DNA of 8,679 nt from NCBI GenBank assembly GCA_023150835.1, contig JAKLKB010000187.1, positions 1 through 8,679 of the forward strand, read 5' to 3'. The notes beneath the pieces are model-generated. The model searched no databases, had not been told where the DNA came from, and worked only from the letters and a program-made list of their open reading frames with translations. Source of the DNA: Myxococcota bacterium. Lineage in GTDB: Bacteria > Myxococcota_C > UBA6777. Below, one piece after another: positions 287 to 8,679 of the stretch. The translations under genes were made by a program, and so were the position numbers. Position 1 is the first letter of the stretch, and the number at the start of each line of letters is the position of its first letter.

Positions 287-634
287 GCTCTCCGTAGCAA
301 ACCGATACACATTTTTTGGCTCTCGGTAACGTACCGACGCCCACGCCGCCACCCTCGGTAGCAAACCGATACACATTTTTTGACTCTCGGTAGCGTACCG
401 ACAACCACGTTGTCGCTCTCGGTAGCGTACCGACAACCACGCTGTCGCTCTCGGTAGCGTACCGGCAACCACGCTATCGCTCTCGGTAGCGTACCGACAA
501 CCACGCTATCGCTCTCGGTAGCGTACCGACAACCACGCTGTCACTCTCGGTAGCGTACCGACAACCACGCTGTCGCTCTCGGTAGCGTACCGACAACCAC
601 GTTGTCACTCTCGGTAGCGTACCGACGAACGGAC
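287..634. repeat. 32-bp tandem repeat array, 11 units
   Basis: Units start at 287, 319, 351, 383, 415, 447, 479, 511, 543, 575 and 607, exactly 32 bases apart; the last is cut short near 634. The common core is ctctcggtagcgtaccgac followed by aaccacgctgtc. Each standard unit holds two dyads: CGGTA-gcg-TACCG, and CGACA with TGTCG around a 7-base loop (the second is imperfect in units ending ctatc). Units 1 and 3 are a variant with gtagcaaaccgatacac and a run of six T. The array has no unique spacers, so it is not CRISPR. It ends about 10 bases before a candidate -35 box and about 130 bases before the lipoprotein start, so it could influence that gene, but no function is shown. Confidence 0.92.
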
Positions 635-765: not shown

Positions 766-2370
766 ATGAAGCATCGTTCTGTGTGGTGGTTTCCCTTCTT
801 GGGACTTTGGATGGCGTGGAGCCTTCCTATGGTACTCACAGGTTGCCCTCAACCGAGCGGAACCGAAGAAACTGTGCAAGACAGCGCCCCCAACGAACCT
901 CAACCCGAACCTCAACCCGAACCCCAGCCCGAACCTGTCGGAAAGCCCCCCAAAGGCGTCGGTGTGGATTGTACCCAAGGCCCGCGTGGAAACAACTGCG
1001 ACACCTCGGAAAGCCCGATGCTTTGCCTTGCTGTCGATGGGACCAAGTCCGTTTGCTATGAAAACTGCACCGCCAATGCAAAGTGCATGGACCCCAACGA
1101 AAAATGTCTTGAAGCCAATAGCGAAGGACTGCGTGGTTGCTTTATTCTCGCCAAAAAAGGCGATGCCTGCGGCCCTGCTCTACGTACACGTTGTGACGAA
1201 GATCTCGTCGATCCACCCGTCTACTGCGTCGAAGGCAAATGCACCGAACGCCCGAAAGATGGATGGGATGTCGGTCAATCTTGCCGTCCTCCACGCGGCA
1301 ACGAGCAAAGCGATTGCAAAGCAGGATTGATCTGCGTCGAATTGGCCAAAACCAACTACCGCTGCGTCAAGTCCTGTAACGCCACGACAGATTGCCCAAA
1401 CGGCGAAGTCTGCTGGGACGAACCCCTCGGCAAAAAAGTCTGCTTGATCGGCTCCAAAGAAGGTGGCCCCTGCAATCGGGACAAACGCCAATTCTGCAAA
1501 AGCGACGACCCCAAAAATTACCCGCTGACCTGCCGCGCCGACAAATGCGAATCCACCGTCGCCTACGTCAAACTCGGTGCCGCTTGTCAAAAAGATATCG
1601 ACCCCACCAAAAAACAAGGCAACTGCGAACCCGGCCTCTACTGCCTCGGCGTAAGCGAATTTGAGTCGCGCTGCCACAAGCCCTGCAAAGGCGCTTCGGA
1701 TTGCCCAAGCAGCGAGGTCTGCGCCCTCCATCCCAACCCCCCCAACGACCCCGAACAAGCCTGCGTCATCCCCGTCAAAAAAGACGAAGCCTGCAATCTC
1801 CTTGACCGAAAATACTGCTACAGCGGAACCACCCAGATCCTCCGATGCAAACGCGAAGAAAACAAAAACGACGGCCTCTGCATCGAAGTCAACGTCGGCG
1901 ACGCTTGTGTCAACAAAGATGGCTGTGGCCCCATGAGCTGCATCCCTTTTAGCGCCACGAACCTCTACTGCCTCTTCCCTTGCAATCCCAACACACCCCA
2001 ATGCCCCGGCAACGGAACTTGCGCAGCATTCGGACAAAACGGCCAACCTCCCTTCGCTTGTCTGCCCAACGGTCCGAAAAAAATCGACCAAGCCTGCAAA
2101 GCCATCAAAGCCGACGGACCCAAGATCGAAACCTCCGAACTCTGCGAAGGCTCACTTCTTTGTGCAGTCCCCCAAGGAGCCGCAGGCGGCGTATGCTACC
2201 AAACCGTCCCCGGCTGTACCGCAACAGCTTGCCAAGGGACCGTCAAGCGCGTCTGCATCCCCATCCAAAACGGCGGATTGTGCGCCAAAGATTGCTCCGC
2301 AGGTTCCGGCCAAACCTGCGATGGCGGCACCGCCTGCAAAGACTTCCAACAAGCAAAGATCTGTCTCTAA
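766..2370 (+). CDS. Cysteine-rich secreted lipoprotein with repeated 12-Cys modules
   Basis: The protein has 534 residues and a start fixed by AAGGAG and a lipoprotein signal peptide: MKHR, a Trp/Leu-rich hydrophobic stretch, then the lipobox LTGC with the lipidated Cys at 27. A Glu-Pro linker (EPQPEPQPEP type) follows, as expected for a tether away from the membrane. The rest carries 56 cysteines. They fall into four successive modules of 12 Cys, starting at VGVDC, VGQSC, LGAAC and VGDAC, and a last partial module of 8. Recurring elements are GLxC, RCxxxC, DCPxxEVC and a KxxxxC turn. This resembles the Dickkopf-like or EGF-like Cys-rich surface proteins common in myxobacteria, but no catalytic domain is visible. 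The even Cys count suggests full disulfide pairing outside the cytoplasm. A structural, adhesive or binding role is inference. The gene stands alone; the next gene starts 113 bases downstream. Confidence 0.9.
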   Translation: MKHRSVWWFPFLGLWMAWSLPMVLTGCPQPSGTEETVQDSAPNEPQPEPQPEPQPEPVGKPPKGVGVDCTQGPRGNNCDTSESPMLCLAVDGTKSVCYENCTANAKCMDPNEKCLEANSEGLRGCFILAKKGDACGPALRTRCDEDLVDPPVYCVEGKCTERPKDGWDVGQSCRPPRGNEQSDCKAGLICVELAKTNYRCVKSCNATTDCPNGEVCWDEPLGKKVCLIGSKEGGPCNRDKRQFCKSDDPKNYPLTCRADKCESTVAYVKLGAACQKDIDPTKKQGNCEPGLYCLGVSEFESRCHKPCKGASDCPSSEVCALHPNPPNDPEQACVIPVKKDEACNLLDRKYCYSGTTQILRCKREENKNDGLCIEVNVGDACVNKDGCGPMSCIPFSATNLYCLFPCNPNTPQCPGNGTCAAFGQNGQPPFACLPNGPKKIDQACKAIKADGPKIETSELCEGSLLCAVPQGAAGGVCYQTVPGCTATACQGTVKRVCIPIQNGGLCAKDCSAGSGQTCDGGTACKDFQQAKICL

Positions 2371-2483: not shown

Positions 2484-3578
2484 GTGCAAGAACAAAGCAA
2501 CCACACCGACCCAGATCGCTGGATCGTCAACCTGCTTCAACAACAACCGCTTTCAACGCCTCAACTCTTTGAAACGGCGTTTGAAACAGCCATGCACGTT
2601 GCGCAACTCCCCTTTGCGCGGGTGGTGCGACTGCGCCATGAAACACACTTGCGCCTTGATGCCGTCGCGGATACCGCAGGCTTTCGCTACCAAGCCGGCC
2701 AAGAATTCCCCGTCGATCACTTGCTTGATGGCGAAGTGATCCGACGACGCGATGCTTTGGCGATCTCTGACCTCGTCGCTTCTCCGCTTGCGCGCCACCC
2801 CGAAGTCCTCGCGGCGGGCGTCCGCAGTTATGTGGGCGTTCCCTTGTGGCTACGCAATCAACAGATCTATGGCGTCCTTTCGATGGCCTCACAAACTCCC
2901 CAACGATGGGGACCTGAAGTCCTTTTGCGCGCCGCCATGATCGGTCGCTGGCTTGGTCAAGAGATCGAGATCCGCCAGATCTCCCGCGAGCTTCACGCCA
3001 AAAGCCACCGCCTCGCCACCATGACCCAAGAGATGCAACATCTCCAAAGCCAGATCGAACAAGGATCGATCCGCGACACCGTGACAGACCTGCTCAACAA
3101 CCGCTACTTCAACAAACTTCTCCAAACCGAGGCCGCTCGCGCCCAACGACACGCTTATCCGCTCAGTCTGCTCTTGCTCTTCCCCGATGACTACTCTCGC
3201 GTCGGCCAACAATGGGGCCTTGACTTTGGCGCAACGGTCCTTCGCTCCATCGGCGTCTTACTCCGACGGCACTTGCGCACCATCGACAACGCCGCCCGCT
3301 ACACCGAAGAAATGTTCGCGATCCTCCTCCCTCAAACCGATATCTCTGGCTCCGCCATCGTCGCCAACCGTATCCGCACCACCATCGGCGGACATCGCTT
3401 TCAAGCCCCCAGCGGCGAAGTCTTCCAAACCTCCGCGAGCCTCGGGATCGCTGGACTTCATGTCCAAGACGACGATCCCGCAGCAGGAATGATCTCCCGC
3501 GCCCGTCGCGCACTCGAACAAGCCCGAAAAGCCGGCGGAAACCGCGTGATCGTCGCCTCTTCCTCCCCCCAATCCTAA
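2484..3578 (+). CDS. GAF plus degenerate GGDEF protein, probable c-di-GMP receptor
   Basis: A 364-residue cytoplasmic protein starting at GTG, with GGGAG 6 bases upstream; no signal peptide or membrane segment. Residues about 22-162 look like a GAF sensor domain (GVPLWL, IYGVLSM). Residues about 160-196 are a helical linker, probably coiled coil. Residues about 197-360 follow the GGDEF fold closely: DTVTDLLNNRYF (198-209), PLSLLLLFP, RRALEQARKAGGNRV at the end. The active site is lost: the RYGGDEF signature reads RYTEEMF (272-278), and the metal-binding DIDxFK reads FPDDYS. The inhibitory-site RxxD is kept as RTID (265-268) at the normal distance. Diguanylate cyclase activity is therefore unlikely. 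By analogy with PelD, PopA and the myxobacterial SgmT, c-di-GMP binding is likely. The output is unknown because no effector domain is attached. Confidence 0.88.
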   Translation: MQEQSNHTDPDRWIVNLLQQQPLSTPQLFETAFETAMHVAQLPFARVVRLRHETHLRLDAVADTAGFRYQAGQEFPVDHLLDGEVIRRRDALAISDLVASPLARHPEVLAAGVRSYVGVPLWLRNQQIYGVLSMASQTPQRWGPEVLLRAAMIGRWLGQEIEIRQISRELHAKSHRLATMTQEMQHLQSQIEQGSIRDTVTDLLNNRYFNKLLQTEAARAQRHAYPLSLLLLFPDDYSRVGQQWGLDFGATVLRSIGVLLRRHLRTIDNAARYTEEMFAILLPQTDISGSAIVANRIRTTIGGHRFQAPSGEVFQTSASLGIAGLHVQDDDPAAGMISRARRALEQARKAGGNRVIVASSSPQS

Positions 3579-3664
3579 ACCCCCACCTCCCTCACACATC
3601 CTTACCACCAAATCAACACAGCATAGGACTTATACAATATCCGAGTCATGTGTGTCCGAATGGT

Positions 3665-3723
3665 CGTGCGTAGACGCCCGATAATCAGGCAGCCACAGGG
3701 GGCTGCCCCTACCTCTTTGCGCC
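3665..3723 (+). repeat. Dispersed hairpin element, copy 1
   Basis: The element starts cgtgcgtagacgccc, has a perfect stem GGCAGCC (3688-3694) / GGCTGCC (3701-3707) around acaggg, and ends near ctgcccctacctctttgcgcc. The reverse complement of 7075-7132 shares the start, the GGGCAGCCACA and CTGCCCCTA blocks and the gcgc end. It resembles REP-type palindromic intergenic repeats. It lies between two plus-strand genes. Confidence 0.7.
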
Positions 3724-4024: not shown

Positions 4025-6349
4025 ATGTCCAGTCCCCCCTCCAAACCAACACACGACCCCACACACCACATCCACACCACCCCAACAACCCTCACCACAC
4101 CAAAACTCCCCTCCGATCTCCCCGATATCGCTTCGTGGCAAGCACTGTACGAAAGCATCCAACAACGCCTCGAACAACTCCAACAACGTAGGACGCAACG
4201 CAGAACACAACTCCTTTCTGCGGCCTTGCACCTCTGCCAATCCCGCGCAGCGAACCTCCGAACTCAACTCCAACAACTCCACGATCTCGAAACAGAGATG
4301 CACCTCCTACACCCCCTACAGACCGAACTCGCAAACATACAACAGATCCGCACCGATCTACAACTCGCTCTCACTCAAACACAACAATACTTCGCTCACC
4401 TCCAAAACCTCCAACAACACGGCGTCTCCCACACTCACGACCTCCGTTGGATACTCGCCTTTTCTAAAACACCTCCCTCCACGCCCATCTCCGAACTCTC
4501 CGACGCTTCCGAACTCTCCGACGCTTCCGAACTCTCCCACGCTTCCGAACTCTCCCACGCTTCCGAAATCTCCGATGTTTCCGAAATCTCCCACGCTTCC
4601 GAAATCTCCGATGCTTCCGAAATCTCCCACACTTCCGAAATCTCCGATGCTTCCGAAATCTCCCACGCTTCCGAAATCTCCCACGCTTCCGAAATCTCCG
4701 ATGCTTCCGAACTCTCCGATGCTTCCGAACTCTCCGATGCTTCCGAACTCTCCGACGCTTCCGAACTCCCCCACGTTTCCGAACTCTCCGATGCTTCCGA
4801 ACTCTCCGATGCTTCCGAACTCTCTGCCTGCTCTCGGATCGGGGCTTCGGTTCCCTCCATCACACAGCAGTCCTTAAGCGGCACAGCTCTATCCCAAAAG
4901 CCAACGACGACTTCTATGCAAACGCCCGTTCCCACCGAGGCGATGCAGGCGATGAAACCTTCGGCTGAGATCGTCGAGCAAAAAGCCGTCTTGCGCCTCA
5001 AAGCACGCATCGACGATGTGAAGGAACGCAGTTCTTTTCGTTGTGTTGCCAACGAGCTAGTCCAAGCACGCCACCAGATCACCAACGAAAAAAAATGGCG
5101 AGATCTCGGAGTCGAGTTGGCCCGAAAAGCCAAACGATGCTGTATCGCCAAAGAAGAATGGTTGGAGTTCCCATTAATTGCAGGATTTTTCGACCACACC
5201 ACCACACCACCACACCACACCAAACGCAAACCGTCCCCCCCAACAGAACCCACCCCATCGGAACAAAAGCTACTTTCCACATTGCAAACCATCGCCTCTC
5301 GTCTGAGTCCTGAACATTCACGGCACACCCTCGAAGCACAAGCCTTTTTGGGACAAATCGATCGCATCCTTCGACAAGCCTCGATCCCCCCCTCTCATCC
5401 ACAACTTTTGAAAATCCTCCGCCCTTTCGCAGATTGGCTACACCAAGGCAACAAATATCGCCACATACGAAAACATCTCGTTCTATCAGCCACAGCATCC
5501 GCACAAACCACCGCAGCACTCAAACAAACCCAGCCCCCTGCGACTCTCTCTTCGTTTAGCGCCTCTTCCGCCGCACAAGAAGGAAGCACCCCTTCGACAA
5601 GCCTCCCCCCTTCTGTCTCGACAGACTCGCCCACGTCGCCGATCCCTTCGAAATCTCCGTCTCTCGACGAACTGCTCTCTGCATCGGAACATTCGGAACA
5701 TTCGGAGGCATCGGAAGATTCTGAAACATCGGAAGATTCATCCGAGGCTGCCGCCACAACGGCATCGCAGCAAGAAACCACGCTTTCGGCCCCGTTGACC
5801 AAAAAACAGCGCAAGCAACTCCAAAAACAACACAAGAAAACAGAAAAAGAACAAAAAACCAAAAGCAAAAGCCATCGGCTACTCCAGCATATGATGCTCA
5901 GCAAAAGCCTTGAGGAGGCGGACAAATTACTGTTTTCATTGTATGCCAAGCCCCCCACCGCCACAACGATGACCACAGAGCAGATGATCGATGCCTTGTT
6001 CCCACACTTTCAAGGAAAGCGTGTGGTCTTGGTAGGCGGCGATCCACGCGAACACTTGCGCGCCTCGCTCGAAAACAAACTCCAGCTTGCGGAGTTGTCT
6101 TGGGTCTCTTCCCAAGGCAGCGATGGGGGCCGTTCTGTCCAAAGCCTCGATGCACGACTTCACCAAGGCACCGTCCAGATGATGATCTTGCTCGCTCGTT
6201 TTTGCGGTCACCCCAAGATCGAAAAGCTGATCGCCACAGCCAAAAACACACAAACGCCTTTTGTTGTGATCACGACCGGATACGGAGAATCCAGCATCCT
6301 CCAAGCCCTCCTTCAAACTCTCCCCCAAAAACCTTCAGCGGGTGTCTAA
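4025..6349 (+). CDS. Large repeat-containing protein with DUF2325-like C-terminal domain
   Basis: A 774-residue protein whose ATG has AAGGAG 6 bases upstream. The N-terminus is Thr/His/Pro-rich. Residues about 34-140 are Gln/Leu-rich and helical, probably coiled coil. Residues 156-269 are 19 hexapeptides of the form SE[L/I]S[D/H]A. Residues about 316-395 form a charged helical region ending EFPLIAGFFDH. Then come Ser/Thr/Pro-rich stretches, a Ser-Glu run (about 554-575) and a lysine-rich helix (about 592-620). The end, about 664-760, reads KRVVLVGGDPREHLRASLE, a WVSS turn, MMILLARFCGHPKIEKL and TPFVVITTGYG; this pattern (VGGDP, RxSLE, arginine-Phe-x-x-His, PFV..G) matches my memory of DUF2325. 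Its role is unknown. There is no signal peptide, so it should be cytoplasmic. Gaps of 446 and 461 bases isolate it, so it is probably monocistronic. Confidence 0.85.
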   Translation: MSSPPSKPTHDPTHHIHTTPTTLTTPKLPSDLPDIASWQALYESIQQRLEQLQQRRTQRRTQLLSAALHLCQSRAANLRTQLQQLHDLETEMHLLHPLQTELANIQQIRTDLQLALTQTQQYFAHLQNLQQHGVSHTHDLRWILAFSKTPPSTPISELSDASELSDASELSHASELSHASEISDVSEISHASEISDASEISHTSEISDASEISHASEISHASEISDASELSDASELSDASELSDASELPHVSELSDASELSDASELSACSRIGASVPSITQQSLSGTALSQKPTTTSMQTPVPTEAMQAMKPSAEIVEQKAVLRLKARIDDVKERSSFRCVANELVQARHQITNEKKWRDLGVELARKAKRCCIAKEEWLEFPLIAGFFDHTTTPPHHTKRKPSPPTEPTPSEQKLLSTLQTIASRLSPEHSRHTLEAQAFLGQIDRILRQASIPPSHPQLLKILRPFADWLHQGNKYRHIRKHLVLSATASAQTTAALKQTQPPATLSSFSASSAAQEGSTPSTSLPPSVSTDSPTSPIPSKSPSLDELLSASEHSEHSEASEDSETSEDSSEAAATTASQQETTLSAPLTKKQRKQLQKQHKKTEKEQKTKSKSHRLLQHMMLSKSLEEADKLLFSLYAKPPTATTMTTEQMIDALFPHFQGKRVVLVGGDPREHLRASLENKLQLAELSWVSSQGSDGGRSVQSLDARLHQGTVQMMILLARFCGHPKIEKLIATAKNTQTPFVVITTGYGESSILQALLQTLPQKPSAGV
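4490..4831 (+). repeat. 18-bp tandem repeat encoding 19 hexapeptides
   Basis: The unit tccgaactctccgacgct recurs in strict 18-base register, 18 full copies and a diverged nineteenth. Variation falls into a few types: gaactc or gaaatc (Leu or Ile) and ccgac/ccgat or cccac (Asp or His). Codon-synonymous changes (gac/gat) mark subgroups. The 18-base period keeps the reading frame, so copy number can change without breaking the gene. Other frames also stay open across it and give false ORFs. Confidence 0.93.
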
Positions 6350-7053: not shown

Positions 7054-7074
7054 TACGAAATCCGCCCCTCATGT

Positions 7075-7132
7075 GCGCCAATATATAGGGGCAGACAGGT
7101 GTGGCTGCCCAACCGTAGGGCATCTACGCACG
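7075..7132 (-). repeat. Dispersed hairpin element, copy 2 (inverted)
   Basis: Read on the minus strand it begins cgtgcgtagatgccc, has the stem GGGCAG/CTGCCC (7105-7110 and 7089-7094) and ends near ggcgca, matching the element at 3665-3723 in layout and in its conserved blocks. The loop and flanks have diverged. It lies between the convergent small ORF and amidohydrolase gene, where it could end both transcripts. Confidence 0.68.
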
Positions 7133-7203
7133 ATCCTTTGATCACACATCTTGCGGATATCGTATCATCCCCTCCCCAGAACAGATCCCCCATCCAAACG
7201 AGA

Positions 7204-8643: not shown

Positions 8644-8679
8644 CACGCTGTTTGCACGAGACGCAGACGCTGCCCGTTC
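8644..8679. repeat. 36-base direct repeat, right copy
   Basis: Matches 1-36 at 33 of 36 positions in the same orientation and shares the GCAG-acg-CTGC mini-stem. It runs into the window edge, so its true extent is unknown. Confidence 0.75.

Follow-up and report, generated by a model that had tools for sequence, protein, structure and literature searches.

The window, meaning the whole stretch of DNA analyzed here, is the complete 8,679-bp contig C143 of genome G000 (7.56 Mb in 239 contigs), with genes called mechanically as open reading frames (ORFs). It starts inside a genus-specific dispersed repeat, a copy of which covers positions 1 to 253 on the plus strand (48 matches in G000 and 724 first-look candidates). 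This repeat also makes up the ends of many contigs and was not found in other genera of the family (G002 to G004). Measuring about 250 bp or more and present in tens to hundreds of copies, it occurs again at 8644 to 8679 of the window. A single-copy spacer (254 to 286) leads from the dispersed element to a plus-strand tandem array at 287 to 626, in which the core CTCGGTAGCGWACCGA occurs 11 times with a period of 32 bp (detected with TRF and checked unit by unit). The array is followed by a conserved plus-strand block (641 to 696) that contains a weak promoter-like motif, TTGATC-N17-TAGGAT (645 to 673). By eye, this motif agrees with 8 of 12 positions, below the scanner's threshold of 9 of 12, and it is kept in the sister species.

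About 140 bp beyond the array end lies the gene of a cysteine-rich putative lipoprotein of 534 amino acids (aa) (766 to 2370, plus strand). Its signal sequence and lipobox LTGC (recognized by eye) bear out the earlier note, which had placed the array upstream of a lipoprotein-type gene; no Pfam family was found for the protein. The next gene encodes a GAF-GGDEF protein (2484 to 3578, plus strand; Pfam), and the order of the two genes is kept in the sister species (G001) and in a related genus (G003). Elsewhere in the window, at about 3630 to 3720 and 7060 to 7160, the sequence belongs to another dispersed family, marked by GGGGCAG...CTGCCCC inverted repeats, which gave 64 and 38 BLAST hits across about 1 Mb. 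Members of this family were also seen at loci L040, L044, L057, and L119 and are sometimes tandem amplified, with periods of 26, 58, 66, 76, or 110. A 774-aa ORF at 4025 to 6349 carries a coding array of its own (4490 to 4824; 18-bp unit, 18.6 copies, encoding SELSDA/SEISHA), and its only Pfam match was a subthreshold one to low-complexity sequence.

The array had been described as eleven 32-bp units in perfect register. TRF found a period of 32 with zero indels at 288 to 401 and 319 to 626, and in the unit-by-unit check the 11 core starts ran from 287 to 607 at intervals of 32 bp without a slip. The register was thus confirmed, but the eleventh unit is a core only: the array is made up of 10 full units and a truncated terminal core, with unique sequence from about position 626. 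TRF detected no arrays in shuffled sequence. The units are arranged head to tail, and their size lies within the range of about 10 to 100 bp for minisatellites; in composition, the array is imperfect and G+C rich. Two unit types are present, with units 1 and 3 belonging to an AT-run type (ACCGATACACATTTTTTG) and units 2 and 4 to 10 to the other. The claim of few differences between units is accurate for units 4 to 10 (mean identity, 95%); across the ten full units, among them the AT-run units 1 and 3, identity falls to 81% and the claim fails. Likewise, the dyad CGGTA-N3-TACCG, thought to be in every unit, is exact in 9 of the 11, units 1 and 3 being the exceptions. The second dyad, CGACA/TGTCG, had been assigned to most units; we found it in 3 of 11 (units 4, 5, and 9), and even the shorter GACA/TGTC in 5 of 11. 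This second dyad is not conserved. The dyads are only mildly unusual, since 2% of shuffled units had as many dyads as the array 32-mer, and among 24 units taken from other noncoding arrays of G000, 3 likewise had two dyads. The longest exact repeat inside the array is 49 bp, which short reads can usually span, so a trivial collapse during assembly does not account for the copy number.

In the sister species, a metagenome-assembled genome (MAG) of the same genus, the array at the orthologous locus has 4 cores, compared with 11 in G000. The copy numbers were read from assemblies (a fragmented draft for the host and a MAG for the sister), with one genome per species, and the comparison is accordingly one between species only. 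It supports the earlier proposal of a variable copy number. The two arrays match in their first unit, second core, and last core, and the middle is absent in the sister species; such agreement at the ends around a differing middle is what slippage or recombination usually leaves behind. The flanks are closely similar in the sister species, with 33 of 33 positions identical at 254 to 286 and one mismatch at 641 to 696 (a block whose limits were picked after viewing the alignment), a higher conservation than that of third codon positions (87% identity) or of the following intergenic sequence (83%). We did not take the conservation of positions 118 to 253 as proof of a stand-alone regulatory element, because this stretch is dispersed repeat. 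Orthologs of the lipoprotein gene were found in the sister species (97%), G003 (49%), and G002 (41%). In G003, the gene adjoins the GGDEF gene (57%), and the array is absent. When 84,980 species genomes were scanned with a pattern, eight matches emerged, one of which was the sister species (Myxococcota bacterium KLAP109); the seven others looked like chance or unrelated repeats. The pattern had no match in viral contigs, and a literature search retrieved no publication on the array or on the sister MAG.

A search of G000 for the 16-bp core found it at two places, the window array and a second array on contig C154, in keeping with the earlier view that the unit is not strewn at random sites. 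Single dispersed cores elsewhere in the genome, including at promoters, were not above chance. The C154 array (9029 to 9431, minus strand) has 13 cores with a period of 32 and two unit types, and its spacers are unlike those of the window array. Between the two arrays, the core is identical at 14 to 15 of 16 positions and the spacers at 5 to 7 of 16. Variable columns cluster in one half of the unit (P of about 0.01 by permutation), a value biased by the fact that the C154 array was found via the core. A core common to both arrays beside nearly unrelated spacers points to a possible constraint on the core. At least five of the 13 C154 units carry an ACCGA-to-AGCGA substitution that breaks the dyad.

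Relative to the gene that follows downstream, the two arrays share one orientation. The C154 array lies between a gene of 263 aa and a gene that resembles the Rpn/transposase type (a likeness by eye, with no Pfam match). A neighboring paralog of the latter has no array, and the homology of the two copies begins only after the array. In the sister species, we did not find an ortholog of the C154 array, and the relative of the adjoining gene there is only 31% identical. The same contig (locus L002) holds two 85%-identical copies of an EGLEKGLEKG-type repeat gene family, at about 336 to 1289 and 2650 to 3240; the family resembles Rpn/DUF4351 proteins by eye, and the copy tested had no Pfam match.

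To place the array in its genomic background, we used TRF to count the tandem arrays with 2.5 or more copies in 1.0 Mb of G000 (about 13% of the genome). There were 180, of which 39 lay outside long ORFs. These 39 occurred in every gene arrangement, many of them between convergent genes (mechanical context list). Tandem repeat density in the sampled contigs of G000 is very high, at about 18 to 22 arrays per 100 kb; in a comparison based on small samples, G000 had 21.7 arrays per 100 kb and the sister species 15.5, against 4 for G003 and 7 for an unrelated genome. In a genome this rich in tandem arrays, the window array is unremarkable as a type of sequence, although its copy number is at the high end among noncoding arrays.

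We consider it probable that the array is a genus-restricted, noncoding variable-number tandem repeat (VNTR) that arose through slippage or unequal recombination and is situated just upstream of the putative promoter region of the lipoprotein gene. The in-register 32-bp units, the 4-core ortholog, the related C154 array, and the absence from a related genus support this explanation; the higher conservation of the core than of the spacers, the conserved flanks, and the shared orientation of both arrays count against a passive minisatellite. An ancestral short stretch would have consisted of an AT-run unit, a CAACCACG unit, and a terminal core, a form that probably persists as the 4-core array of the sister species. 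Units would then have been added by replication slippage or unequal recombination, processes that we infer from the copy difference and the in-register units, both of which are directly observed. The array occupies the interval from the dispersed repeat to the putative promoter region that precedes the lipoprotein and GGDEF genes. Gain or loss of units may influence this promoter slightly as a by-product, but the array would be mainly an outcome of a genome strongly prone to forming tandem repeats.

The main rival to a minisatellite is a regulatory effect of the array, which we regard as possible but distinctly less likely. Judged from the sequence, regulation via core copies is plausible. The array could be a multicopy operator, in which the TCGGT-N5-ACCGA dyad of each core would bind a putative dimeric protein and the number of cores would set repression or activation of the lipoprotein-GGDEF genes; we give this proposal the same tentative standing. 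Since 32 bp is about three helical turns, the cores would lie on one face of the DNA. Preservation of the core and the 32-bp period across two arrays with nearly unrelated spacers, the conserved flanks in the sister species, and the variable core number all fit such an operator, as do bacterial precedents at lpdA, cysG, and dop of Mycobacterium tuberculosis (PMC12817950) and hmw1A of Haemophilus influenzae (PMC8262952). Yet the dyad is broken in at least five C154 units, single-copy cores at other promoters do not exceed chance, and both the neighboring paralogous gene on C154 and the G003 gene pair do without an array. The presence of many arrays in all gene contexts and the poor conservation of the second dyad likewise count against a special regulatory role. 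A bolder version, in which both period-32 arrays would offer multisite landing platforms to an undescribed protein of this lineage that binds DNA, with helical phasing selected, spacers free, and copy number acting as a rheostat for the lipoprotein-GGDEF pair, seems to us improbable.

Still less likely, in our judgment, is a structured element, in which the array would be transcribed from an upstream start into a row of hairpins, or would form cruciforms, and act on transcription or mRNA. The array RNA does fold more stably than shuffled sequences (-118.1 versus -102.9 kcal/mol; z = -2.8), but this z value is modest for a sequence built of repeated dyads, the second dyad is intact in only 3 of 11 units, and the four unit types folded as DNA gave z values of -0.4 to -2.1. 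By eye, we saw no compensatory changes between unit types, and Rfam gave no match in the array and a single one outside it at chance level (E = 0.94, below the gathering score). Regular spacing and a conserved core at two loci might also suit a binding array of the maintenance type (iteron, parS, or other) belonging to a mobile or chromosomal element; with no replication or partition gene recognized in the window and no match in viral contigs, we think this very unlikely. The alternation of a conserved core with other sequence recalls CRISPR, but the spacers of a CRISPR array are unique, and here they are themselves repeated, with two types per array. Together with the lack of a Cas protein among the window proteins scanned with Pfam, this leaves a CRISPR-like array a negligible prospect, as the earlier note had concluded.

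Should the array prove regulatory, this tandem-repeat-rich lineage, known from metagenome assemblies, would possess a promoter VNTR, and comparison with the related second array would be a natural way to test where in the unit the constraint lies. Otherwise, the array serves as a useful marker and illustrates how mutation alone can yield regular-looking structures where tandem repeats are dense.

The M. tuberculosis VNTRs include a 58-bp tandem repeat in the lpdA promoter, and promoter repeat number changes at lpdA, cysG, and dop (PMC12817950). Like the lpdA VNTR, the present array lies just ahead of a gene, is built of noncoding units arranged head to tail, and differs in copy number among relatives; unlike it, the array has units that measure 32 bp, contain a dyad, and fall into two types, with 11 versus 4 copies between species. 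At H. influenzae hmw1A, 7-bp units overlap mapped promoters, and more repeats lead to lower expression (PMC8262952). Both systems place tandem repeats of changing copy number before a gene for a cell-envelope-type product, although an expression effect has been demonstrated for the hmw1A units, whereas for our array such an effect is a possibility. In its density of tandem repeats, within ORFs as well as between genes, the host genome resembles Borg elements (PMC9879509); Borg repeats, however, are perfect and enriched in A, whereas the array described here is imperfect and rich in G+C.
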